Assembly (NCBI RefSeq): GCF_038024065.1
Contig: NZ_CP150667.1
Span: 2,797,501 to 2,861,500 of the forward strand
Length of the DNA stretch: 64,000 nucleotides
Source: Polaribacter sejongensis
GTDB taxonomy: Bacteria; Bacteroidota; Bacteroidia; Flavobacteriales; Flavobacteriaceae
Direction of reading: 5' to 3'
A program made the translations under genes and the position numbers. The notes under the pieces are model-generated. The model did not search any database and was not told the origin of the DNA. It worked only from the letters and a program-made list of their open reading frames with translations. Shown piece by piece: positions 5,131 through 28,684 of the stretch. Positions within the stretch are counted from its first letter, which is position 1; every line of letters starts with the position of its first letter.

Positions 5131-7356
5131 TTAGGCTTCTATTAAAGCAAAATCTAAATGTTTTCTTTCTAAATCTGTATGTTTTACTCTTACTTTAACA
5201 TCATCTCCTAATTGATACATTTTTTTAGAAGCTTGACCTACAATAGCATATTGCTTTTCATCAAAAAGATAATAATCACTTTTTATATCTCTAATTCTCA
5301 CCATTCCTTCACATTTATTAGAAGAAATTTCTACATAAATACCCCATTCTGTAACACCGGTAATTACACCTTCAAAAATTTCATCTTTATGATCTTGCAT
5401 GTATTTTACTTGCATGTATTTAATAGATGATCTTTCTGCTTTAGAAGCTAATTCTTCTCTATTCGAAGAATGTTTACACTTTTCTTCATACTTATCTGCT
5501 TTTGGGCTTTCTCCGCCATCTAAATAGTGTTGCAGCAATCTATGTGTCATTACATCTGGATAACGTCTAATAGGCGACGTAAAATGACTGTAATAATCGA
5601 AAGCCAATCCGTAATGCCCAATATTTTGAGTTGTATACACTGCTTTAGACATGGTTCTAATAGTTAAAGTCTCAATCATGTTAGATTCTGCTTTACCATG
5701 TACATCACTTAACAACTGATTTAAAGAATCTGAAGTAGATTTTTTGGTATCTGTATTAATTTTGTATCCAAATTTACGGACCATATTTTCTAAAGAAGCT
5801 AATTTTTCTACATCTGGCTCATCATGAACCCTGTAAATAAATGTATTGTTGGTAGCTTTTCCTTTAGAAAAACCAATAAATTCAGCTACTTTTCTATTTG
5901 CTAACAACATAAATTCTTCAATTAATTTGTTAGCATCTTTAGATTCTTTAAAGAATACACCCACTGGGTTTGCTTCTTCATCTAAATTGAACTTCACTTC
6001 TACTCTATCAAAAGAAATTGCACCTTGTTTCATTCTTTTTTTACGAAGAATTTTAGCCAATTCATCTAACTTTAAAGTAGCTTCTACAACTTCTGGAGCT
6101 ACTACATAAGATTCATCTGTAATAGAAATATCTTCTGGCATAGTATACGCCTGAACATCATCTGATAATTTTACATTTTCTATAATAGATTGTGCTTCTT
6201 CATATGCAAAACGTTGGTCTGAGTACGTTACTGTTCTACCAAACCACTCTCCTACTACTTGTGCTTTTTTATTCAATTCAAAAACAGCAGAAAACGTTAA
6301 TTTTTCTTCATGTGGTCTTAAAGAACACACTCCGTTAGATAACATTTCTGGCAACATTGGTACTACTCTATCTACTAAATAAACAGATGTTGCTCTTTTA
6401 TAAGCTTCATCATCTAAAATAGTTTTTGGTTGTAAATAATGGGAAACATCGGCAATATGAATTCCTATTTCATAATTCCCATTTTCTAATTTTGTGAATG
6501 ATAAGGCATCATCAAAATCTTTCGCATCTTTAGGATCTATCGTGAAAGTTAAGTCTTTACGCATATCTCTACGCTTAGAAATTTCTTTTTCTGTAATTTC
6601 AATTGATAAAGATTCTGCGTCTTTTTCTACCTCTGGTTCAAACTCAAACGGCAAACCATATTCTAATAAAATAGAATGCATTTCTGTATTATGATCTCCT
6701 GGTTTACCAAGAACAGTTGTAATTTTTCCGAAAGGATTTTTAGAGTTTTTAGGCCAATCTAACAAAGTAGCTTGTACTTTATCGCCATCTACTGCCCCAT
6801 TCAACTTGCTTTCAGATACAAAAATATCTGCATACATTTTGTTATTATCTGGCACTACAAATCCAAAATTTTTGGTTTTACTTTTTTGTAAAACACCAAC
6901 AAATTCTGTTTTTGCTCTTTCTATAATTTCTACAACGTCAGCTTCATATTTCTTACCACTTCGTCTTTTATAAACATATGCTTTTACAGTATCGTTATGT
7001 AAACCTTTACCCAAATTAATATTCGGAATAAAAATATCGTCTTCATAATCATCGGTAACAAAATATCCGTTTCCTGTAGAAGTTACATCTAAAGTACCAA
7101 TAGAATATTTTCTATCAACATTTACTTGAAACTTACCGCGTTCTACTTCTTTTATTTCTTTAGTTGCAGCTAATTCTGCTAATTTCTTAATTATTTGGGT
7201 TTTCCCATCCGTATCAGAAATTTTTAATTTTGCAGCAATTTGCTTATGATTATAGGATTTTTCGCTGTCTTGTTTTAATACTTTAAATATATTTTTAGTT
7301 AAGTCTTTTACAACGTTCCCTTTCTTTTTATATATTTTATTCTTCTTTTTTGTCAT
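5131..7356 (-). CDS. rnr: Ribonuclease R
   Basis: 741 residues, the usual length of RNase R. This 3'-5' exoribonuclease degrades structured RNA in the cytoplasm. Domains in order: Lys-rich N-terminus with a winged-helix region (about 17-75), two cold-shock OB folds (about 85-220), the RNB catalytic domain (about 265-590) with TIDPKDAKDFDDAL at 272-285 holding the metal-binding aspartates, HFTSPIRRYPD near 575, and a C-terminal S1 domain (about 655-735). The N-terminal Lys tract is typical of RNase R rather than RNase II. The gene is monocistronic as far as can be seen. Confidence 0.96.
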   Translation of the reverse strand: MTKKKNKIYKKKGNVVKDLTKNIFKVLKQDSEKSYNHKQIAAKLKISDTDGKTQIIKKLAELAATKEIKEVERGKFQVNVDRKYSIGTLDVTSTGNGYFVTDDYEDDIFIPNINLGKGLHNDTVKAYVYKRRSGKKYEADVVEIIERAKTEFVGVLQKSKTKNFGFVVPDNNKMYADIFVSESKLNGAVDGDKVQATLLDWPKNSKNPFGKITTVLGKPGDHNTEMHSILLEYGLPFEFEPEVEKDAESLSIEITEKEISKRRDMRKDLTFTIDPKDAKDFDDALSFTKLENGNYEIGIHIADVSHYLQPKTILDDEAYKRATSVYLVDRVVPMLPEMLSNGVCSLRPHEEKLTFSAVFELNKKAQVVGEWFGRTVTYSDQRFAYEEAQSIIENVKLSDDVQAYTMPEDISITDESYVVAPEVVEATLKLDELAKILRKKRMKQGAISFDRVEVKFNLDEEANPVGVFFKESKDANKLIEEFMLLANRKVAEFIGFSKGKATNNTFIYRVHDEPDVEKLASLENMVRKFGYKINTDTKKSTSDSLNQLLSDVHGKAESNMIETLTIRTMSKAVYTTQNIGHYGLAFDYYSHFTSPIRRYPDVMTHRLLQHYLDGGESPKADKYEEKCKHSSNREELASKAERSSIKYMQVKYMQDHKDEIFEGVITGVTEWGIYVEISSNKCEGMVRIRDIKSDYYLFDEKQYAIVGQASKKMYQLGDDVKVRVKHTDLERKHLDFALIEA

Positions 7357-7471
7357 TAATTCTTACTTCTTATTATATGATACTAAATTACAAATATTTA
7401 CTGTGATTGGCTATTAAAAAATGGTTATCAATCTAAAATTGTAATTTGGCATTACTTTAATTATTATTTTT

Positions 7472-8380
7472 ATGTCTACATCTTGGTTTATAATTGCAAA
7501 TCCTATTTCTGGAAATCGGAATTTTTCTAAACAATGGAAGGAAATTCAACAATTACTAAACAATAAGAAAATAGACTTTTCTTTTGCTTTTACAAAATTT
7601 TCTAAACACGAAATTGAATTGGTTGATACCGCAATTCAACAAGGTTTTAGAAATATTATTTCGATTGGTGGAGATGGAACACTACATAACGTAGTTAACG
7701 GAATAATGATGCAAAGGTACGCAAAAACTTCTGATATAACTATTGCTGTAATTCCACAGGGAACTGGTAACGATTGGATAAAGACTTATAATATACCTAA
7801 TAACGTTAAAAAAGCGATTGAAATTATTCATAAAAAGAACATTATTTTACAAGATATTGGTGTTTTAGAAACTGATAATAGCACTGTTTTTTTTAATAAT
7901 GTAGCAGGTTTAGGGTATGATGGTTACATTGTTAATAAACTAAAAACTTTAAAGAGTTTTGGTTCTCTAGCGTATATATTAAGCGGAATAGCTGGTTTAT
8001 TATTTTATAAAAAAACGGTGTTTAAAATTATTTTTGATGATAAAATACTAGAAACTAATTGTTTAATGACTGTTTTTGGGATTTGTAAATTTTCTGGTGG
8101 CGGAATGCAGTTTACAAAAAATGTAAATAGCACAGATGGTTTATTAGATGTTACCATAGCTAAAAACCTGAATATCTTAGATTTAATTTTAAATCTACCT
8201 AAATTATATTCTGGTAAAATTGTAGATCATAAAAAACTAGAAACTTATAAAACTAAAGCAATTAGGGTGGTTCCAAAAACAGCAAAACCTTTTATTCAGG
8301 CTGATGGTGAGGTAATTGGAACTGGAGAAGTACAAGTAAAAATTATTGAAAAAGCTATTAATTTTGTAGTTACTAATTAA
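7472..8380 (+). CDS. Diacylglycerol/lipid kinase family protein (YegS-like)
   Basis: 302 residues. The catalytic domain begins with FIIANPISGN (6-15) and has the nucleotide-binding GGDGTLHNVVNGI (66-78) and PQGTGNDW near residue 97, the hallmarks of the DAGK/YegS/sphingosine kinase superfamily. The C-terminal half is the beta-rich domain with FSGGGMQFTKNVNSTDGLLDV and ADGE near residue 275. It would phosphorylate a lipid hydroxyl group, the precise substrate being unclear (diacylglycerol or another lipid). It faces the same way as rpiB but the two are separated by a long gene-free region. Confidence 0.9.
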   Translation: MSTSWFIIANPISGNRNFSKQWKEIQQLLNNKKIDFSFAFTKFSKHEIELVDTAIQQGFRNIISIGGDGTLHNVVNGIMMQRYAKTSDITIAVIPQGTGNDWIKTYNIPNNVKKAIEIIHKKNIILQDIGVLETDNSTVFFNNVAGLGYDGYIVNKLKTLKSFGSLAYILSGIAGLLFYKKTVFKIIFDDKILETNCLMTVFGICKFSGGGMQFTKNVNSTDGLLDVTIAKNLNILDLILNLPKLYSGKIVDHKKLETYKTKAIRVVPKTAKPFIQADGEVIGTGEVQVKIIEKAINFVVTN

Positions 8381-9120
8381 AAATCAACTTTATAATTTCA
8401 ATATAGCTTATATTTTTAAAGAAAAAGACATTGAAGACAATATGCTTTTTTGTTTTTATAAAAGGTAACGCAACTTTAAATTATTAAAATACTTTTATTC
8501 TCTATAAACAGAAAAATAAAGAGTCTAATAAAATTTAAGTCAATTTCTTCTCTATTTTCTTTTCGCTTTCCTCCTATTTCATTTTTTCGTTTTCAACAGT
8601 TATAAACATTCTTTATAATAATTATATTTTCTTTTTAAATTTAAAAAAAACAATAATGGTTATAATAGTGTGTGAATAGCTACTATAAAAAAATGTCTTT
8701 TTATTTTTTAATTTCAGTTATTAAAAATCATTGACAAGTTATGAGTTACTTAAAAGCTTAAAAATCAATTTAAAATTAGAGTTATTAACAATAGTTATAA
8801 ACAGTAGTTAACCTAAAACTCTTAATAGTTAACAACCCAATTGATGTAAACAAATGGTTAATTTTATGTTGATAAACTTTTATCAAAAACTCATAAATAA
8901 AGTTGTGTATGTCATAGTACTCGCTGTATTGTAATTTTAATTCAATATACCAAATTTACTTATAAAAGTTTGCTGATACTTCTTAACAATTACCTAACAT
9001 AGCTAAAGAGTTAAAAATTAAAAGGTTATTAAAAAAGCTATTTTTTTGATTGTTTATAACTGTTGATAACCGTTAGTTTCTGTATTTTTGTGGCTACAAC
9101 ACAATTAAAATCAATTTATT
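8381..9120. other. Gene-free AT-rich region with clustered DnaA-box-like sites (candidate oriC)
   Basis: 740 bases without a plausible gene. It contains six 9-mers of the form TTATNAACA or its complement: 8600-8608, 8782-8790 and 8795-8803 on the plus strand, and 8867-8875, 9051-9059 and 9061-9069 on the minus strand. These differ from the classical TTATCCACA box at one or two positions. Also present are a pyrimidine-rich tract at about 8541-8596, an inverted repeat TTGATAAA/TTTATCAA near 8869-8886 and long A/T stretches. The layout resembles a bacterial replication origin, but dnaA is not adjacent. The last two boxes overlap the rpiB promoter. Confidence 0.45.
9063..9090 (+). promoter_or_regulatory. 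Promoter of rpiB
   Basis: TTG (9063-9065), 17-base spacer, TATTTTTG (9083-9090): a good match to the Bacteroidota -33/-7 pattern. The -33 lies inside the DnaA-box-like TGTTGATAA at 9061-9069. Confidence 0.65.
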
Positions 9121-9555
9121 ATGACAATTGCCATTGGAAACGACCACGCTGGTACAGAATACAAATTCGAAATTATAAAACATTTAGAAGAAAAAGGATA
9201 TAAAGTTCTAAATTTTGGAACCGATACAAATGATTCTATGGATTATCCGGATGCAATACATCCAACAGCAGATGCTGTAGAAAGTGGTAAAGCAGAAATG
9301 GGTATTATTTTATGTGGTTCTGGTAACGGAGCTCAAATGACCGCTAATAAACACCAAGGCATTAGAGCTGCTTTGTGTTGGAATAATGAATTGGTTGCAT
9401 TAACAAGACAACATAACAATGCAAATGTTCTTACAATTCCTGCACGTTTTGTTTCTTTACAACAAGCTATTGGTTTTGTAGATGTTTTTCTTTCTACAGA
9501 GTTTGAAGGTGGTAGACATGGAGATAGAGTAAATAAAATTTCTTGTGCAGGATAA
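9121..9555 (+). CDS. rpiB: Ribose 5-phosphate isomerase B
   Basis: 144 residues, typical for RpiB/LacAB isomerases. It interconverts ribose 5-phosphate and ribulose 5-phosphate in the non-oxidative pentose phosphate pathway. Visible features are the N-terminal IAIGNDHAGTEYK with Asp8 and His9, the GIILCGSGNGAQMTANK loop with the catalytic Cys65, and HNNANVLTIPARF with a phosphate-binding region after it. Start chosen at the ATG 30 bases after the -7 box. A strong terminator follows. Confidence 0.95.
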   Translation: MTIAIGNDHAGTEYKFEIIKHLEEKGYKVLNFGTDTNDSMDYPDAIHPTADAVESGKAEMGIILCGSGNGAQMTANKHQGIRAALCWNNELVALTRQHNNANVLTIPARFVSLQQAIGFVDVFLSTEFEGGRHGDRVNKISCAG

Positions 9556-9595
9556 TTATTAAATATTCTTGATACAAAATTTATAAAAAATAAAT

Positions 9596-9636
9596 AAAAA
9601 TCACTCGACCTTACTATTAGTTCGAGTGATTTTTTC
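9596..9636 (+). terminator. Terminator after rpiB
   Basis: ATCACTCGA (9600-9608) pairs with TCGAGTGAT (9622-9630), flanked by A and T runs. The TCACTCGA stem sequence is also found in the nirB-nirD hairpin at 59742-59865. Confidence 0.8.
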
Positions 9637-9653
9637 TTTCAAATTGATATAAT

Positions 9654-10094
9654 ATGGACTTTATAATAAAATCTTTTTCAGAATTAAATACTACAGAGTT
9701 GTATAATATACTTCAATTACGATCTGAAGTTTTTGTGGTAGAACAAGACTGTGTATACCAAGATGTAGATTTTAAAGATCAAAAAGCATTACATGTTTTT
9801 GGATTAAAAGAGGATAAAATAATTGCATATACACGTATTTTTAAACCAGGAGTTTATTTTAAAAATGCCAGTATTGGTAGGGTAGTAGTTGCTGCTAACG
9901 AACGTAAATACGGTTTTGGACATGATTTAATAAAAGCTTCTATTAAAGCCATTAAAACTCATTTTAAGGTAGATGAAATTACAATTTCTGCTCAAAAATA
10001 TTTAAAGAAATTCTATGAAACGCATCAATTTATTCAAGTAGGCGAGGAGTACTTAGAAGATGGTATTCCGCATATTAGAATGGATAGAGAATAA
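9654..10094 (+). CDS. GNAT family N-acetyltransferase, ElaA-like
   Basis: 146 residues, close to E. coli ElaA in length. It opens with FSELNTTELYNILQLRSEVFVVEQ, of which LRSEVFVVEQ is the ElaA signature, followed by the acetyl-CoA binding strand-loop ASIGRVVVAANERKYGFG (about residues 79-96), where GRVVV and the basic loop contact the CoA pyrophosphate. The substrate of ElaA proteins is unknown. It lies 18 bases after the rpiB terminator, and a repeat-rich region follows its stop. Confidence 0.88.
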   Translation: MDFIIKSFSELNTTELYNILQLRSEVFVVEQDCVYQDVDFKDQKALHVFGLKEDKIIAYTRIFKPGVYFKNASIGRVVVAANERKYGFGHDLIKASIKAIKTHFKVDEITISAQKYLKKFYETHQFIQVGEEYLEDGIPHIRMDRE

Positions 10095-10130
10095 TTAGTT
10101 TTTGTAGACACTCAGTTTAATATTTTTACT

Positions 10131-10335
10131 GTTATAGTATTTCTCCTTTCGTCGAAAAGACAATTTGAATGGTTCGTTATCCGTTCTGTATTAACCTGTT
10201 GTTTGTCATTTCGAAATGAGCTTTTTTGCCTTTCGACTTCGCTCAAGATAAACTAATGAGAAATTTCATAAAGTAGCTCAGTTTTTCGCTGGCTTTTTTA
10301 TGAAATTTTACCTTTGTAAAAGTGACAATTATTGT
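10131..10335. repeat. Dispersed repeat family 1, locus 1
   Basis: Between the convergent acetyltransferase and TonB receptor genes. It holds one arm in minus orientation (TTCTCCTTTCGTCGAAAAGACAA, in part, about 10141-10163) and one plus-orientation arm starting TTTGTCATTTCGAAATGAGC at 10202, with TGAGAAATTTCAT inside and a complementary end AAAGTGACAA near 10319-10328. The same blocks recur at 33872-34620, 53682-54150 and 62770-63007. Confidence 0.8.
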
Positions 10336-10347
10336 GTCTTTTATTGA

Positions 10348-12876
10348 TTAAAAATTGACTCTAAAGCTTAAATTAGGAGTAAAAGGCAAAGAATAATTGT
10401 TTATTCTATTTACATTATTTTTACTAGTTTCATCTACAATATAATAAGAATCTATAATGTTTTCCTTATCCGTTAAATTAGTAAAACCTAGACGAATAGT
10501 GGATTTTATAACATCAGAAAAATCAAAATTATAGCTTCCAGAAAGATCTAATCTAAAGAAATTATCTAACTTTTCTTGGTTAGGATTGTTATAATTTACA
10601 ATAGTTCTGTTACCACTTTTTATGGTTTCGTTTCCATCAATAGGTGTTGTATAAGGTTTACCAGAACGTAAAACTCCACCAAAAGAAATTTTAAAAAATT
10701 CAGTAAAATTATAGTTAAATGCTGCACTTAAAGAATGTGTAATATCTAAGCTATTAGAAAATGTTGTAGGATTAAAAATATCGAATGTATAATCGTTTTT
10801 AGCGTAGGTATAGCTTAGCCAAGTACTAATTTTTTCAGTTTGTTTGTTCACTAAAAACTCAACCCCTTTTACTTTATAATTTCCTATAGAATTTATGGCT
10901 TGCGTATTGTTATAAAAGCCTTGGTTTACAGCTGTAATTCCATTTGCTTTTTTATAAAAACCAGTAATATCTACATATAATTTGTTTTTAGAATATGCTG
11001 CTCCAAAAGAAGCCTGTTTACTTTTTATAATAGGTGTATTTTCATCATCAGAAAGAATCCATCTTCGTTTTTCTATTCCTAAAAAATTATCTTCAAAATC
11101 TATTTTTTGTGCTGTTGTTTGGTTTTTTAATTCGCCTTCTAATTTTACAGATAATTCTGTATTTAATTGCTGTCGGATGTTAATTCTAGGTTCTACAACA
11201 AATTTAGAAAACTGATCAAAGTAGTTTGCCCGAACTCCAAATCTTGCATAAGTATTTTTTTTATGATACTCAATTTCAGTATAAAAGGCACTTTTTAACA
11301 ACACATTTTTGTCTGTTTTAGAATATGTAGGTGCATTTACAGTTGTGGTATTTTTTATACCTATTTCATTTAATACCAATCCATTAGTAAAATGTAAAAC
11401 ATCAGAAATCTCATATTTAGAATTTAACTTTACTTCCGTTTCTAACACATTATTAAACTGCGTTTGATATTGATCTGAATCTTTATTATAATCTGTAGAA
11501 TTTATTCTATAATCAGAAAAAAAGAAAGATAAGTTGGTAGAAAATTTAGCATCCCAGTTTGCATGCCAGTTGATGTTTGCTCCTAAATTTTCTTGTTTTA
11601 AAGTACTATTTTCTTCAATTGTTGTCGTATTAGTAGTGTATTTTTCTTGATAGTCTAAATTGTTTTTTATATGAATAAAATTGGCTCTAATAGTATGATT
11701 GTAGCTAACATCATATAAAACTTTAAAAGAATAATCGTAGAAATAAAATTTAGAATCGGCGTTATTTATAGTACTTGATGAAATAGAATTATCTTGAAAA
11801 CTACGAGAGAAATAATTTTTATAAGTTGGAGTGTTAATAACATCTGTAAACGACCTTCTTGCAGAAATATGAGCTTCTAAATTCTTCTTTATAGGCACTT
11901 GTACAAAAGCATCTGCACTTAATAAATTAAAACCACCACCACCAGAAAGTTTATTTGTAATTTCATTAGATGTTTCCATTTTTATAGTTGAAGAAACCCC
12001 GTCTGAAAAAGCACTACTTGTTCCGTTTTTAGTAACAGATATTTTTTTTGTTAAATACGGATTATAAGCAGAAATAAGTCCAAAAAAATGACCTGAATGA
12101 TACATTTTTATACCATCCCAAAGCATTAAATTTTGATCATTTGTACCACCTCTTACGTTAATATTAGAAATACTTTCGTTTATACTTTCTATACCTGGTA
12201 GAATTTTAATTGTTTTTAAAATATCGGGTTCTATTAAACCTGGTAAAATTCCGAATTTTTCTGTGTCTAAAACTGTACTACCATCAGTATTTTTATGCAA
12301 ACCAGCGGTTAAAAACTTAGGCATTATAATTTCTGATAATTCCTCTGTTTCTTCTTCTAAAAATACTTCTTTGCAGTTAGAAGAAAACAACTCTTTAGCA
12401 GTAATAATCTTTGTTTTAAAACTGATAAAAGAAATTGTTAAAGTAGCATTAGCAGGTACATTTTTTAACTTAAAATTACCGTTATTATTAGTGGTTGTTC
12501 CTAATTTATAACCATTTACTTTTACAGAAGTTAAAAATAAAGGTTCTAAAGAGTTAGCATCTAAAACGGTTCCGCAGACAGAAATGTATTTATTTAAAAA
12601 TGAAACGGTTACATATCTATTGTCTAAAGTTTTAAATTGTAAAAAGGTTTCTTTATTTAAAAAAGAGAGTAGATTTTCTATTGAAATATCTTTTTTTGGT
12701 TGCTGTATAAAAATATTTTTTACATCATTATCAGAATAAGAAAATTTTATATCATAACTTTTTTCAAGCCCTAATAAAATTGATGTAAGTGGCTTTTTCT
12801 CTGAAGAATTTTGAGAAAATACAAGATTATTAGTCAGTATAAAACTGATAAAAAAAAGAAGATACTTATTTCTCAT
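10348..12876 (-). CDS. TonB-dependent outer membrane receptor with STN domain
   Basis: 842 residues from the ATG at 12876; this start gives a clean signal peptide (RNKYLLFFISFILTNNLVFSQ), while an in-frame ATG at 12906 would add ten residues ahead of it. Order: STN/secretin-like domain (about residues 25-90), carboxypeptidase-like Ig domain (about 95-180, VCGTVLDANSLEPL), plug (about 200-300, NINVRGGTNDQNLMLWDG), then a 22-stranded-type barrel ending in an aromatic residue (SFRVNF). It imports an unknown ligand using TonB energy. The STN domain is the part that usually signals to FecR, whose gene lies directly upstream and overlaps by 11 bases. No SusD partner is present, which argues against a glycan utilisation system. 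Confidence 0.9.
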   Translation of the reverse strand: MRNKYLLFFISFILTNNLVFSQNSSEKKPLTSILLGLEKSYDIKFSYSDNDVKNIFIQQPKKDISIENLLSFLNKETFLQFKTLDNRYVTVSFLNKYISVCGTVLDANSLEPLFLTSVKVNGYKLGTTTNNNGNFKLKNVPANATLTISFISFKTKIITAKELFSSNCKEVFLEEETEELSEIIMPKFLTAGLHKNTDGSTVLDTEKFGILPGLIEPDILKTIKILPGIESINESISNINVRGGTNDQNLMLWDGIKMYHSGHFFGLISAYNPYLTKKISVTKNGTSSAFSDGVSSTIKMETSNEITNKLSGGGGFNLLSADAFVQVPIKKNLEAHISARRSFTDVINTPTYKNYFSRSFQDNSISSSTINNADSKFYFYDYSFKVLYDVSYNHTIRANFIHIKNNLDYQEKYTTNTTTIEENSTLKQENLGANINWHANWDAKFSTNLSFFFSDYRINSTDYNKDSDQYQTQFNNVLETEVKLNSKYEISDVLHFTNGLVLNEIGIKNTTTVNAPTYSKTDKNVLLKSAFYTEIEYHKKNTYARFGVRANYFDQFSKFVVEPRINIRQQLNTELSVKLEGELKNQTTAQKIDFEDNFLGIEKRRWILSDDENTPIIKSKQASFGAAYSKNKLYVDITGFYKKANGITAVNQGFYNNTQAINSIGNYKVKGVEFLVNKQTEKISTWLSYTYAKNDYTFDIFNPTTFSNSLDITHSLSAAFNYNFTEFFKISFGGVLRSGKPYTTPIDGNETIKSGNRTIVNYNNPNQEKLDNFFRLDLSGSYNFDFSDVIKSTIRLGFTNLTDKENIIDSYYIVDETSKNNVNRINNYSLPFTPNLSFRVNF

Positions 12877-17826: not shown

Positions 17827-18615
17827 TTAGTTTTTTAAAGAAGATAAAAACTCCTTAAAAGAAGCCCAATACGTTTCATTACCTTCTGTAGTTTTCCAAA
17901 GCGCTCTAGAACCATGAATCCCTTTTGCTTCTGGTATAAAATGCGTTAAATAACTAGCATCTACTTTATTTACTAATGTTTTAACGGCAACACTTTCGCT
18001 TAAAGAAGAAGTAACAAAAACAGGTTTTTTATACATACTTATACTTTTATTAATGTCTATTCCTTTAAAATATTCACCAGGACTAAATGCAGCAACAGCT
18101 TTTATTTTAGAATTATTTACACCCATTAAAAGTGCTAAAGAAGAAGAGTAAGAACTACCAACTAATATAATTTTTTGTCCGCCGTTTTGATTGTATATAT
18201 AATCTACAGCAGCTTCAATGTCTTGTTTTGCATCTAAATAAGTATCGCCTAAACCTTTTGTACGAGCAGCCATTGCGGTTTCATTATCTATATTATTAAC
18301 CGTTTTACCAGAACGTTGATCTATTGCCATTACAGCATATCCTAGTTTAGTTAATTCTATAGCAGAATCCTTATATTCTCCTCTACTATAACCTGCCTGA
18401 TGACATAATAAAATAGTAATAGGTGTTTCTTTGTTTTTATAAATATCTGCCGTAATTGGTAAACTATCTTTAGAAGGAAAAGTGATTGTAGTTTTTAGAA
18501 AACTTTTGTCTATTTCTTTTACAATGCTTTTATTTTCTTTTTCTACGGTAGTTTTATTAGTAGGTTGTTTACAAGAAAAGACAAGTATAAGGCTAAGTAT
18601 TAAAGTAAATTTCAT
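17827..18615 (-). CDS. Alpha/beta hydrolase lipoprotein
   Basis: 262 residues. Signal peptide with lipobox LVFSC (Cys15). The alpha/beta hydrolase core has ITILLCHQAGYSRGEY (oxyanion region), the nucleophile elbow GSSYSSS (153-159, Ser155), and a terminal His near residue 234 (GIHGSRALW). The topology resembles dienelactone hydrolase-like or BAAT-type esterases; the substrate is unknown. Predicted location is a membrane face in the envelope. The next gene, rluE, starts almost immediately. Confidence 0.85.
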   Translation of the reverse strand: MKFTLILSLILVFSCKQPTNKTTVEKENKSIVKEIDKSFLKTTITFPSKDSLPITADIYKNKETPITILLCHQAGYSRGEYKDSAIELTKLGYAVMAIDQRSGKTVNNIDNETAMAARTKGLGDTYLDAKQDIEAAVDYIYNQNGGQKIILVGSSYSSSLALLMGVNNSKIKAVAAFSPGEYFKGIDINKSISMYKKPVFVTSSLSESVAVKTLVNKVDASYLTHFIPEAKGIHGSRALWKTTEGNETYWASFKEFLSSLKN

Positions 18616-22041: not shown

Positions 22042-22473
22042 TTAAACACCTGTACTTCCAAAACCATCAGCACCACGTTCTGTTTCACTTAAAACAGTTA
22101 CTTCTTGCCAATTTACACGTTCGTGTTTTGCAATGATTAATTGTGCGATTCTTTCACCATCATTAATTACAAAATCATCATTAGATAAGTTGACTAAAAT
22201 TACGCCAATTTCTCCTCTATAATCTGCATCTACAGTTCCTGGAGAATTTAAAACGGTTATTCCGTTTTTTGCTGCCAAACCACTTCTTGGTCTTACTTGG
22301 GCTTCAAAACCAACTGGTAAAGCTATAAACAAGCCTGTTTTAACAATAGCTCTTTCTAATGGCTTTAATGTGATTACTTCTTCAATATTTGCTCTTAAAT
22401 CCATTCCTGCAGCGCCTTCGGTTTCGTAATTAGGCGTTGCGTGTTTCGATTTGTTAATTATTTGTACGTTCAT
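22042..22473 (-). CDS. dut: dUTP diphosphatase
   Basis: 143 residues, the normal length of a trimeric dUTPase. It hydrolyses dUTP to dUMP and pyrophosphate, keeping uracil out of DNA. All five motifs are visible: AAGMDLRA (I), [13 protein letters not shown] (II), [20 protein letters not shown] (III, with the catalytic Asp), [11 protein letters not shown] (IV) and [11 protein letters not shown] (V, the mobile C-terminal arm). The first 20 bases overlap the end of the esterase gene, so the two genes are translationally coupled. Confidence 0.97.
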
Positions 22474-28367: not shown

Positions 28368-28684
28368 GATTTTTAATTTTAAAGTTATTTTTTAATAAAT
28401 ATAGTAGCAATTCTTTTTTTAAAAAAGAATTGGCTATTGTTTTGAAGTACTCGAAACTATATTTTCATAAGCCTTAAAATTACTGATGATGTATATCAAA
28501 TATACATTTTTTTTGAATTGAAAAATAAAATAAATATTATTTTAAATATTTTATAAAAAGTTATGTTGATAATAAATTTATCATAAATTGTATTGATAAT
28601 TAATAAGTTATATAGTATTTTATTTATTAAAAAATCCTTCAAATTTTAAAACTTGAAGGATTTTTTAATGAGTACCTACATTTT
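28368..28684. other. Gene-free stretch between glpD and a secreted protein gene
   Basis: 317 bases, very AT-rich. It holds an odd palindrome CAATTCTTTTTTTAAAAAAG... (28408-28432), an AT hairpin ATGTATAT/ATATACAT with a T run (28489-28515), and the glpD terminator (28629-28666). No ORF with protein-like composition was seen. Confidence 0.6.
28629..28666 (-). terminator. Terminator of glpD
   Basis: AAAAAATCCTTCAA (28629-28642) pairs with TTGAAGGATTTTTT (28653-28666), symmetrical, 18 bases after the glpD stop. Confidence 0.8.

Follow-up and report, generated by a model that had tools for sequence, protein, structure and literature searches.

The window considered here is a 64,000-base stretch of the chromosome of the marine bacterium Polaribacter sejongensis, corresponding to positions 2,797,501-2,861,500 of the single 4,504,946-base contig. 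Towards its left end a non-coding gap of 740 bases (window positions 8381-9120, 21% G+C, located at 2.8059-2.8066 Mb) separates two plus-strand genes. The left neighbour (7472-8380) encodes a YegS-type lipid kinase (TIGR00147, 147.8 bits at a cut-off of 118.65), with the RNase R gene on its far side, and the right neighbour (9121-9555) is rpiB, the ribose 5-phosphate isomerase B gene (TIGR01120, 150.3 bits, cut-off 138.65), whose protein product has its best named relative, among the named rpiB loci (the best 80 of at least 591), in Polaribacter with 97% identity. The gap was described as free of genes in the first-pass annotation, and this was confirmed: only six ORFs of at least 20 aa overlap 8385-9115, their lengths are 20-46 aa, and with the longest ORF at 46 aa a hidden gene was ruled out. 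The Rfam scan of 7000-10500 gave zero matches at E up to 1, by which a known conserved RNA was ruled out as well; the sigma-70-type promoter scan returned six sites against 7.5 in shuffles, and a terminator was also not found.

The gap carries six strong DnaA-box-like sites of the form TTATNAACA, an AT-rich form of the usual DnaA box TTATNCACA, within 470 bp. They start exactly where the first-pass annotation had put them, three on the plus strand (8600, 8782, and 8795) and three on the minus strand (8867, 9051, and 9061), and the three left boxes point right while the three right ones point left. Their conservation was followed in an alignment of 42 Polaribacter/Tenacibaculum-type sequences, own included; more distant loci were left out of it, as were L088 and L103, in which the contig stops within the region. 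Box 1 (8600-8608, plus, TTATAAACA) reads TTATNAACA in 38 of the 42, counting the three commonest forms alone. Box 2 (8782-8790, plus) is TTATTAACA in 37 sequences and is followed at a 13-bp step head to tail by box 3 (8795-8803, plus), which is TTATAAACA in 29 and is the most variable of the plus-strand boxes. Box 4 (8867-8875, minus, TTATCAACA) reads TTATNAACA in all 42, with all eight specified letters invariant. The lowest conservation of the six belongs to box 5 (9051-9059, minus, TTATAAACA), where TTATAAACA is found in 15/42, TTATTAACA in 4/42, and TAATTAACA in 11/42, and at a 10-bp step head to tail with it lies box 6 (9061-9069, minus), which is TTATCAACA in 29/42 and TTATGAACA in 7/42.

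Two degenerate boxes are also conserved. The first one (8671-8679, minus, CTATTCACA) retains the final ACA in 42/42 sequences, position 6 being split between C (23) and A (19), and the second (8980-8988, plus) is TTCTTAACA in 35/42 with the terminal AACA in 42/42. Between box 1 and box 2 the nearest-neighbour stability calculation places the least stable 100 bp of the region (8612-8711), a candidate unwinding element, which is weaker than 99.6% of the 100-bp stretches of the window, 10 separate others being weaker still. Over the entire window the minimum of stability falls at 28529-28628, a 100-bp stretch weaker than the least stable one of the region. Adjoining the degenerate box at 8671 is the plus-strand sequence CTACTA (8680-8685), a weak candidate for a DnaA-trio, present in the window and in many near relatives and variable in others; judged from these sequences, a DnaA-trio here is not convincingly conserved, and literature on the DnaA-trio in connection with Bacteroidetes was not found.

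At the right end a presumed rpiB promoter was read from the sequence as TTG-N17-TATTTTTG (9063-9090, plus), which we take to match the Bacteroidetes-type consensus and whose TTG is overlapped by box 6; of 41 relatives, 26 carry TTG-N17-20-TANNTTTG in the last 80 bp before the gene, and 30 retain a box followed by TANNTTTG. The array is bracketed by a 32-nt inverted repeat (81%) of a double box (8589-8620 and 9039-9070), and the outer left half of the repeat (approximately 8590-8598) is kept only in a few near relatives.

The motif TTATNAACA is in itself common: the window has 28 sites against 11.4 expected, and genome-wide its 695 occurrences are below the 833 of the reversed control. What stands out is its clustering. 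Shuffling 8381-9120 5000 times with the dinucleotides preserved gave 0.24 sites on average and never as many as six, so the earlier estimate of fewer than 0.3 by chance was right. A cluster scan of 949 kb (the window together with 59 of 60 sampled 15-kb stretches, 21% of the own genome) identified the gap as the sole 740-bp interval with at least three sites, the next best having two, so that nothing comparably dense was seen elsewhere in the scanned part. Head-to-tail pairs of the form TTATNAACAN{1,5}TTATNAACA are found only twice in the whole 4.5-Mb genome, both times at the gap, and the reversed control gave 0. Over 14 genomes this pair pattern had 18 matches against three for the reversed control; 13 of the 18 are situated just upstream of rpiB, in the own genome and in seven of the 13 others, and the remaining five are elsewhere in three genomes.

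Of 39 genomes, the own one among them, 37 yielded an rpiB gene, and in Polaribacter and Tenacibaculum the boxes are located upstream of it at about -522, -340, -327, -255, -71, and -61. In some Polaribacter the entire set is displaced by 60-110 bases, an extra box near -465 is present in many Polaribacter/Tenacibaculum loci, and four boxes each are present in two other genomes, G062 and the congener G077 (in the latter at the customary positions, -525, -341, -256, and -61). In the 42-sequence alignment the identity to the window was 0.93 for the boxes, 0.65 for the rest of 8550-9085, and 0.34 for 8381-8549. The relaxed motif TTATNMACA occurs within 700 bases upstream of rpiB 235 times in 41 close relatives (14 for the reversed control) and 160 times in 69 other loci (17 for the reversed control), and within 800 bases upstream 56 times in 23 further loci of the order (seven for the reversed control). 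The sites take the form of the classical DnaA box, TTAT[AC]CACA, in L254 and in Psychroflexus aurantiacus (L142). Boxes were absent from the gap before rpiB, 13-224 bases long, in five of five Algoriphagus, three of three Saprospiraceae, and two of two Myroides loci. For these loci, as for the Polaribacter and Tenacibaculum positions, boxes were counted upstream as far as the nearest ORF found, and in some short loci that ORF is truncated or was overlooked.

The GC skew of the own chromosome was sampled at third positions and in intergenic DNA of 60 15-kb stretches, together 20% of the genome, and fitted with a two-switch model carrying separate terms for genes on each strand. Every one of the 28 stretches lying between 0.76 and 2.78 Mb had negative skew, and every one of the 32 on the remaining arc, which starts at 2.86 Mb and passes the contig ends to reach 0.68 Mb, had positive skew, so that all 60 show the sign expected from the fitted origin and terminus. 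The best fit places the origin, as a negative-to-positive switch, at 2.79-2.85 Mb, an interval that contains the gap at 2.806 Mb and is 21 lnL better than the runner-up; the opposite switch, the terminus, falls at 0.69-0.75 Mb. In a finer scan over 86.5 kb the best change-point was at window position 17,945, 9 kb to the right of the gap, and the gap was 7 lnL below it, where these lnL differences are too large because the scan treats bases as independent. Skew alone cannot fix the start to the base, its resolution being not below about 10 kb. The dnaA gene (contig positions 25-1419), which encodes a DnaA of normal length (515 bits, cut-off 343.9), lies inside the positive-skew arm 1.7 Mb from the gap, and an origin at dnaA was ruled out by the same skew sign on either side of it.

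Six of seven single-contig genomes, own included, have a skew compatible with an origin at rpiB. The gene is inside the best origin interval in the own genome (G000), in G025 from another family of the order, in G062, and in G081, and is off it by 0.1 lnL in G016 and 3.6 lnL in G002; with just 20 stretches sampled in each relative, the intervals span 30-240 kb. In G034, a member of another family, rpiB is 39 lnL worse as origin, and its 79-base upstream gap has no boxes.

Clustering of the boxes, their conservation, and their coincidence with the skew switch are results of computation, and independent support is provided by the near-fixed box positions in relatives and by the skew switches seen at rpiB beyond the genus, including one further family of the order. 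According to these data we consider it very probable that the segment from 8600 to about 9090, which is the conserved part of the gap and extends into the rpiB promoter, is the chromosomal replication origin, oriC, its limits following the identity across the 42 sequences and its position falling in the fitted switch. The oriC reading proposed in the first-pass annotation agrees with the skew switch, the cluster unique in the sampled sequence, and the conserved box positions, and in the sampled parts of the genome it withstood both refuting conditions named with it, a distant skew minimum and boxes of equal density elsewhere. The extent that it gave, 8381-9120, holds for the core only: judging from the alignment, 8381-8599 probably lies outside the origin, because the conserved part starts at 8600. 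The pyrimidine-rich tract that it listed is present (about 8540-8590) but is not conserved in relatives.

Box clusters of E. coli can also act as titration or regulatory sites, and a datA/DARS-like site of this type, near to but distinct from the true origin, is the alternative that the annotation had left beside oriC. The local change-point 9 kb away would fit it, yet neither the 86.5 kb surrounding the switch nor the 949 kb sampled holds another cluster of three boxes that could serve as the origin, and the array coincides with a skew switch, inside the fitted origin interval, in several genera. Since titration does not predict a skew switch, this explanation is much less likely than an origin and is regarded as very improbable.

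A slightly smaller chance still is given to an origin adjoining mnmG with the box array as a mere neighbour. The gene is only 15 kb from the gap (11-52 kb from rpiB in five relatives), and two other Flavobacteriaceae provide a precedent: for Mariniflexile litorale, where dnaA did not fit the skew, Ori-Finder predicted an oriC adjoining mnmG (PMC11278836), and for Algorimicrobium one at mnmG (PMC12843772). With these the Polaribacter locus shares the family, a dnaA that misfits the skew, and mnmG in the neighbourhood, but both papers name mnmG itself, while the Polaribacter boxes are upstream of rpiB. Against such an origin, only two boxes, 719 bp apart, are present between 2.787 and 2.7975 Mb, and a figure legend of PMC11278836 calls mnmG ter, contradicting the paper's own text. 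As change-points the two mnmG ends are 65 and 81 lnL worse, and on these deficits an origin exactly at mnmG was rejected. Beside the intact mnmG of G002 lie apparent degenerate repeats (G002:C1:3580453-3582353), namely four partial matches, interrupted by stops, to the C-terminal portion of the gene. Finally, a conserved rpiB promoter or leader, in which the TTATNAACA repeats serve a transcription factor, is hardly credible despite box 6 lying over the TTG and the retained box and TANNTTTG arrangement, as the boxes extend 520 bp upstream, an Rfam match is absent, rpiB stands without them in the Algoriphagus, Saprospiraceae, and Myroides loci and in G034 (origin elsewhere), in L142 and L254 classical DnaA boxes stand at these sites, and the skew is left unexplained.

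For the preferred reading, that of a chromosomal origin, a conventional way of working can be proposed. DnaA, supplied from its distant gene, would bind the six strong and at least two weaker conserved boxes and would spread from the strong boxes over the weaker ones. The very AT-rich DNA would then be opened, most likely around 8610-8720, which is the least stable part by calculation, and two forks would depart in opposite directions toward the terminus near 0.7 Mb. DnaA may also lower rpiB transcription, the TTG of the presumed promoter lying within box 6.

The oriC of E. coli has boxes on both strands and an AT-rich segment, and its dnaA is not adjacent; these features, together with mnmG in the region, are shared by the Polaribacter locus, which differs in that its boxes are TTATNAACA and not TTATNCACA, in its size of about 490 bp, and in its position between the lipid-kinase and rpiB genes. 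In Bacillus subtilis the oriC/BUS carries a DnaA-trio, and the Polaribacter arrangement of a box followed by CTACTA beside AT-rich DNA resembles it, but the Polaribacter trio is short and varies among relatives. As to gene order, the E. coli oriC is located between gidA/mnmG and mioC, according to a study on Y. pestis and E. coli (PMC10225481). The distance of dnaA from the gap, recorded earlier, stands, but the location is not unusual, because a large distance between oriC and dnaA is common in Bacteroidetes, as stated with reference to DoriC in the Prevotella intermedia OMA14 paper (PMC4755523). The first chromosome of OMA14, like the Polaribacter locus, has its box-rich region at the GC-skew switch with dnaA elsewhere, though P. 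intermedia belongs to a different class of the phylum and its origin was found with the E. coli box and Ori-Finder (PMC4755523). Blattabacterium is described as lacking dnaA and clear boxes (PMC2768785). In open PMC papers no claim of an origin beside rpiB or RNase R was found for this group.

The parB gene is present at 1.768 Mb, and with a parS consensus and two mismatches allowed three parS-like places were found in the genome against two for the reversed control. The sequence TGTTTCACTTAAAACA at window positions 22081-22096, 13 kb from the probable origin, is one of the three; as such near-matches do not exceed what the control yields, a parS site close to the gap was not found.

Expressed as a fraction of the circumference, the distance between dnaA and rpiB ranges from 0.29 to 0.40 among nine congeneric single-contig genomes, the own one counted, and in 31 single-contig genomes of the family it has a mean of 0.35 with an sd of 0.06 and a range of 0.19-0.48, genome lengths being rounded to 0.1 Mb for 29 of the 31 and rpiB being skew-checked as origin in only a few of them. 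On this scale 0.5 is the terminus, and measured against the only yardstick applied, a uniform spread (0.25, sd 0.14), dnaA is both further from rpiB and more tightly placed. Shared ancestry may account for the steady distance. The broader proposition, that the family keeps its origin upstream of rpiB with dnaA held late in the replication cycle, perhaps by selection, and with DnaA at box 6 touching rpiB, is considered unlikely as a whole; if the distance is selected, replicating dnaA late could make each new initiation depend on the near-completion of the preceding round.

In summary, the present data provide a base-level map of the likely oriC in Polaribacter/Tenacibaculum-type bacteria, with six strong and two weaker boxes at near-fixed spacing, which allows these genomes, several of which start at dnaA, to be numbered correctly and coverage-based growth-rate estimates to be improved. 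The map also suggests that the mnmG label given to the origin in this family is possibly some 10-50 kb off. With the origin so placed, the regular distance between it and dnaA becomes a testable question.
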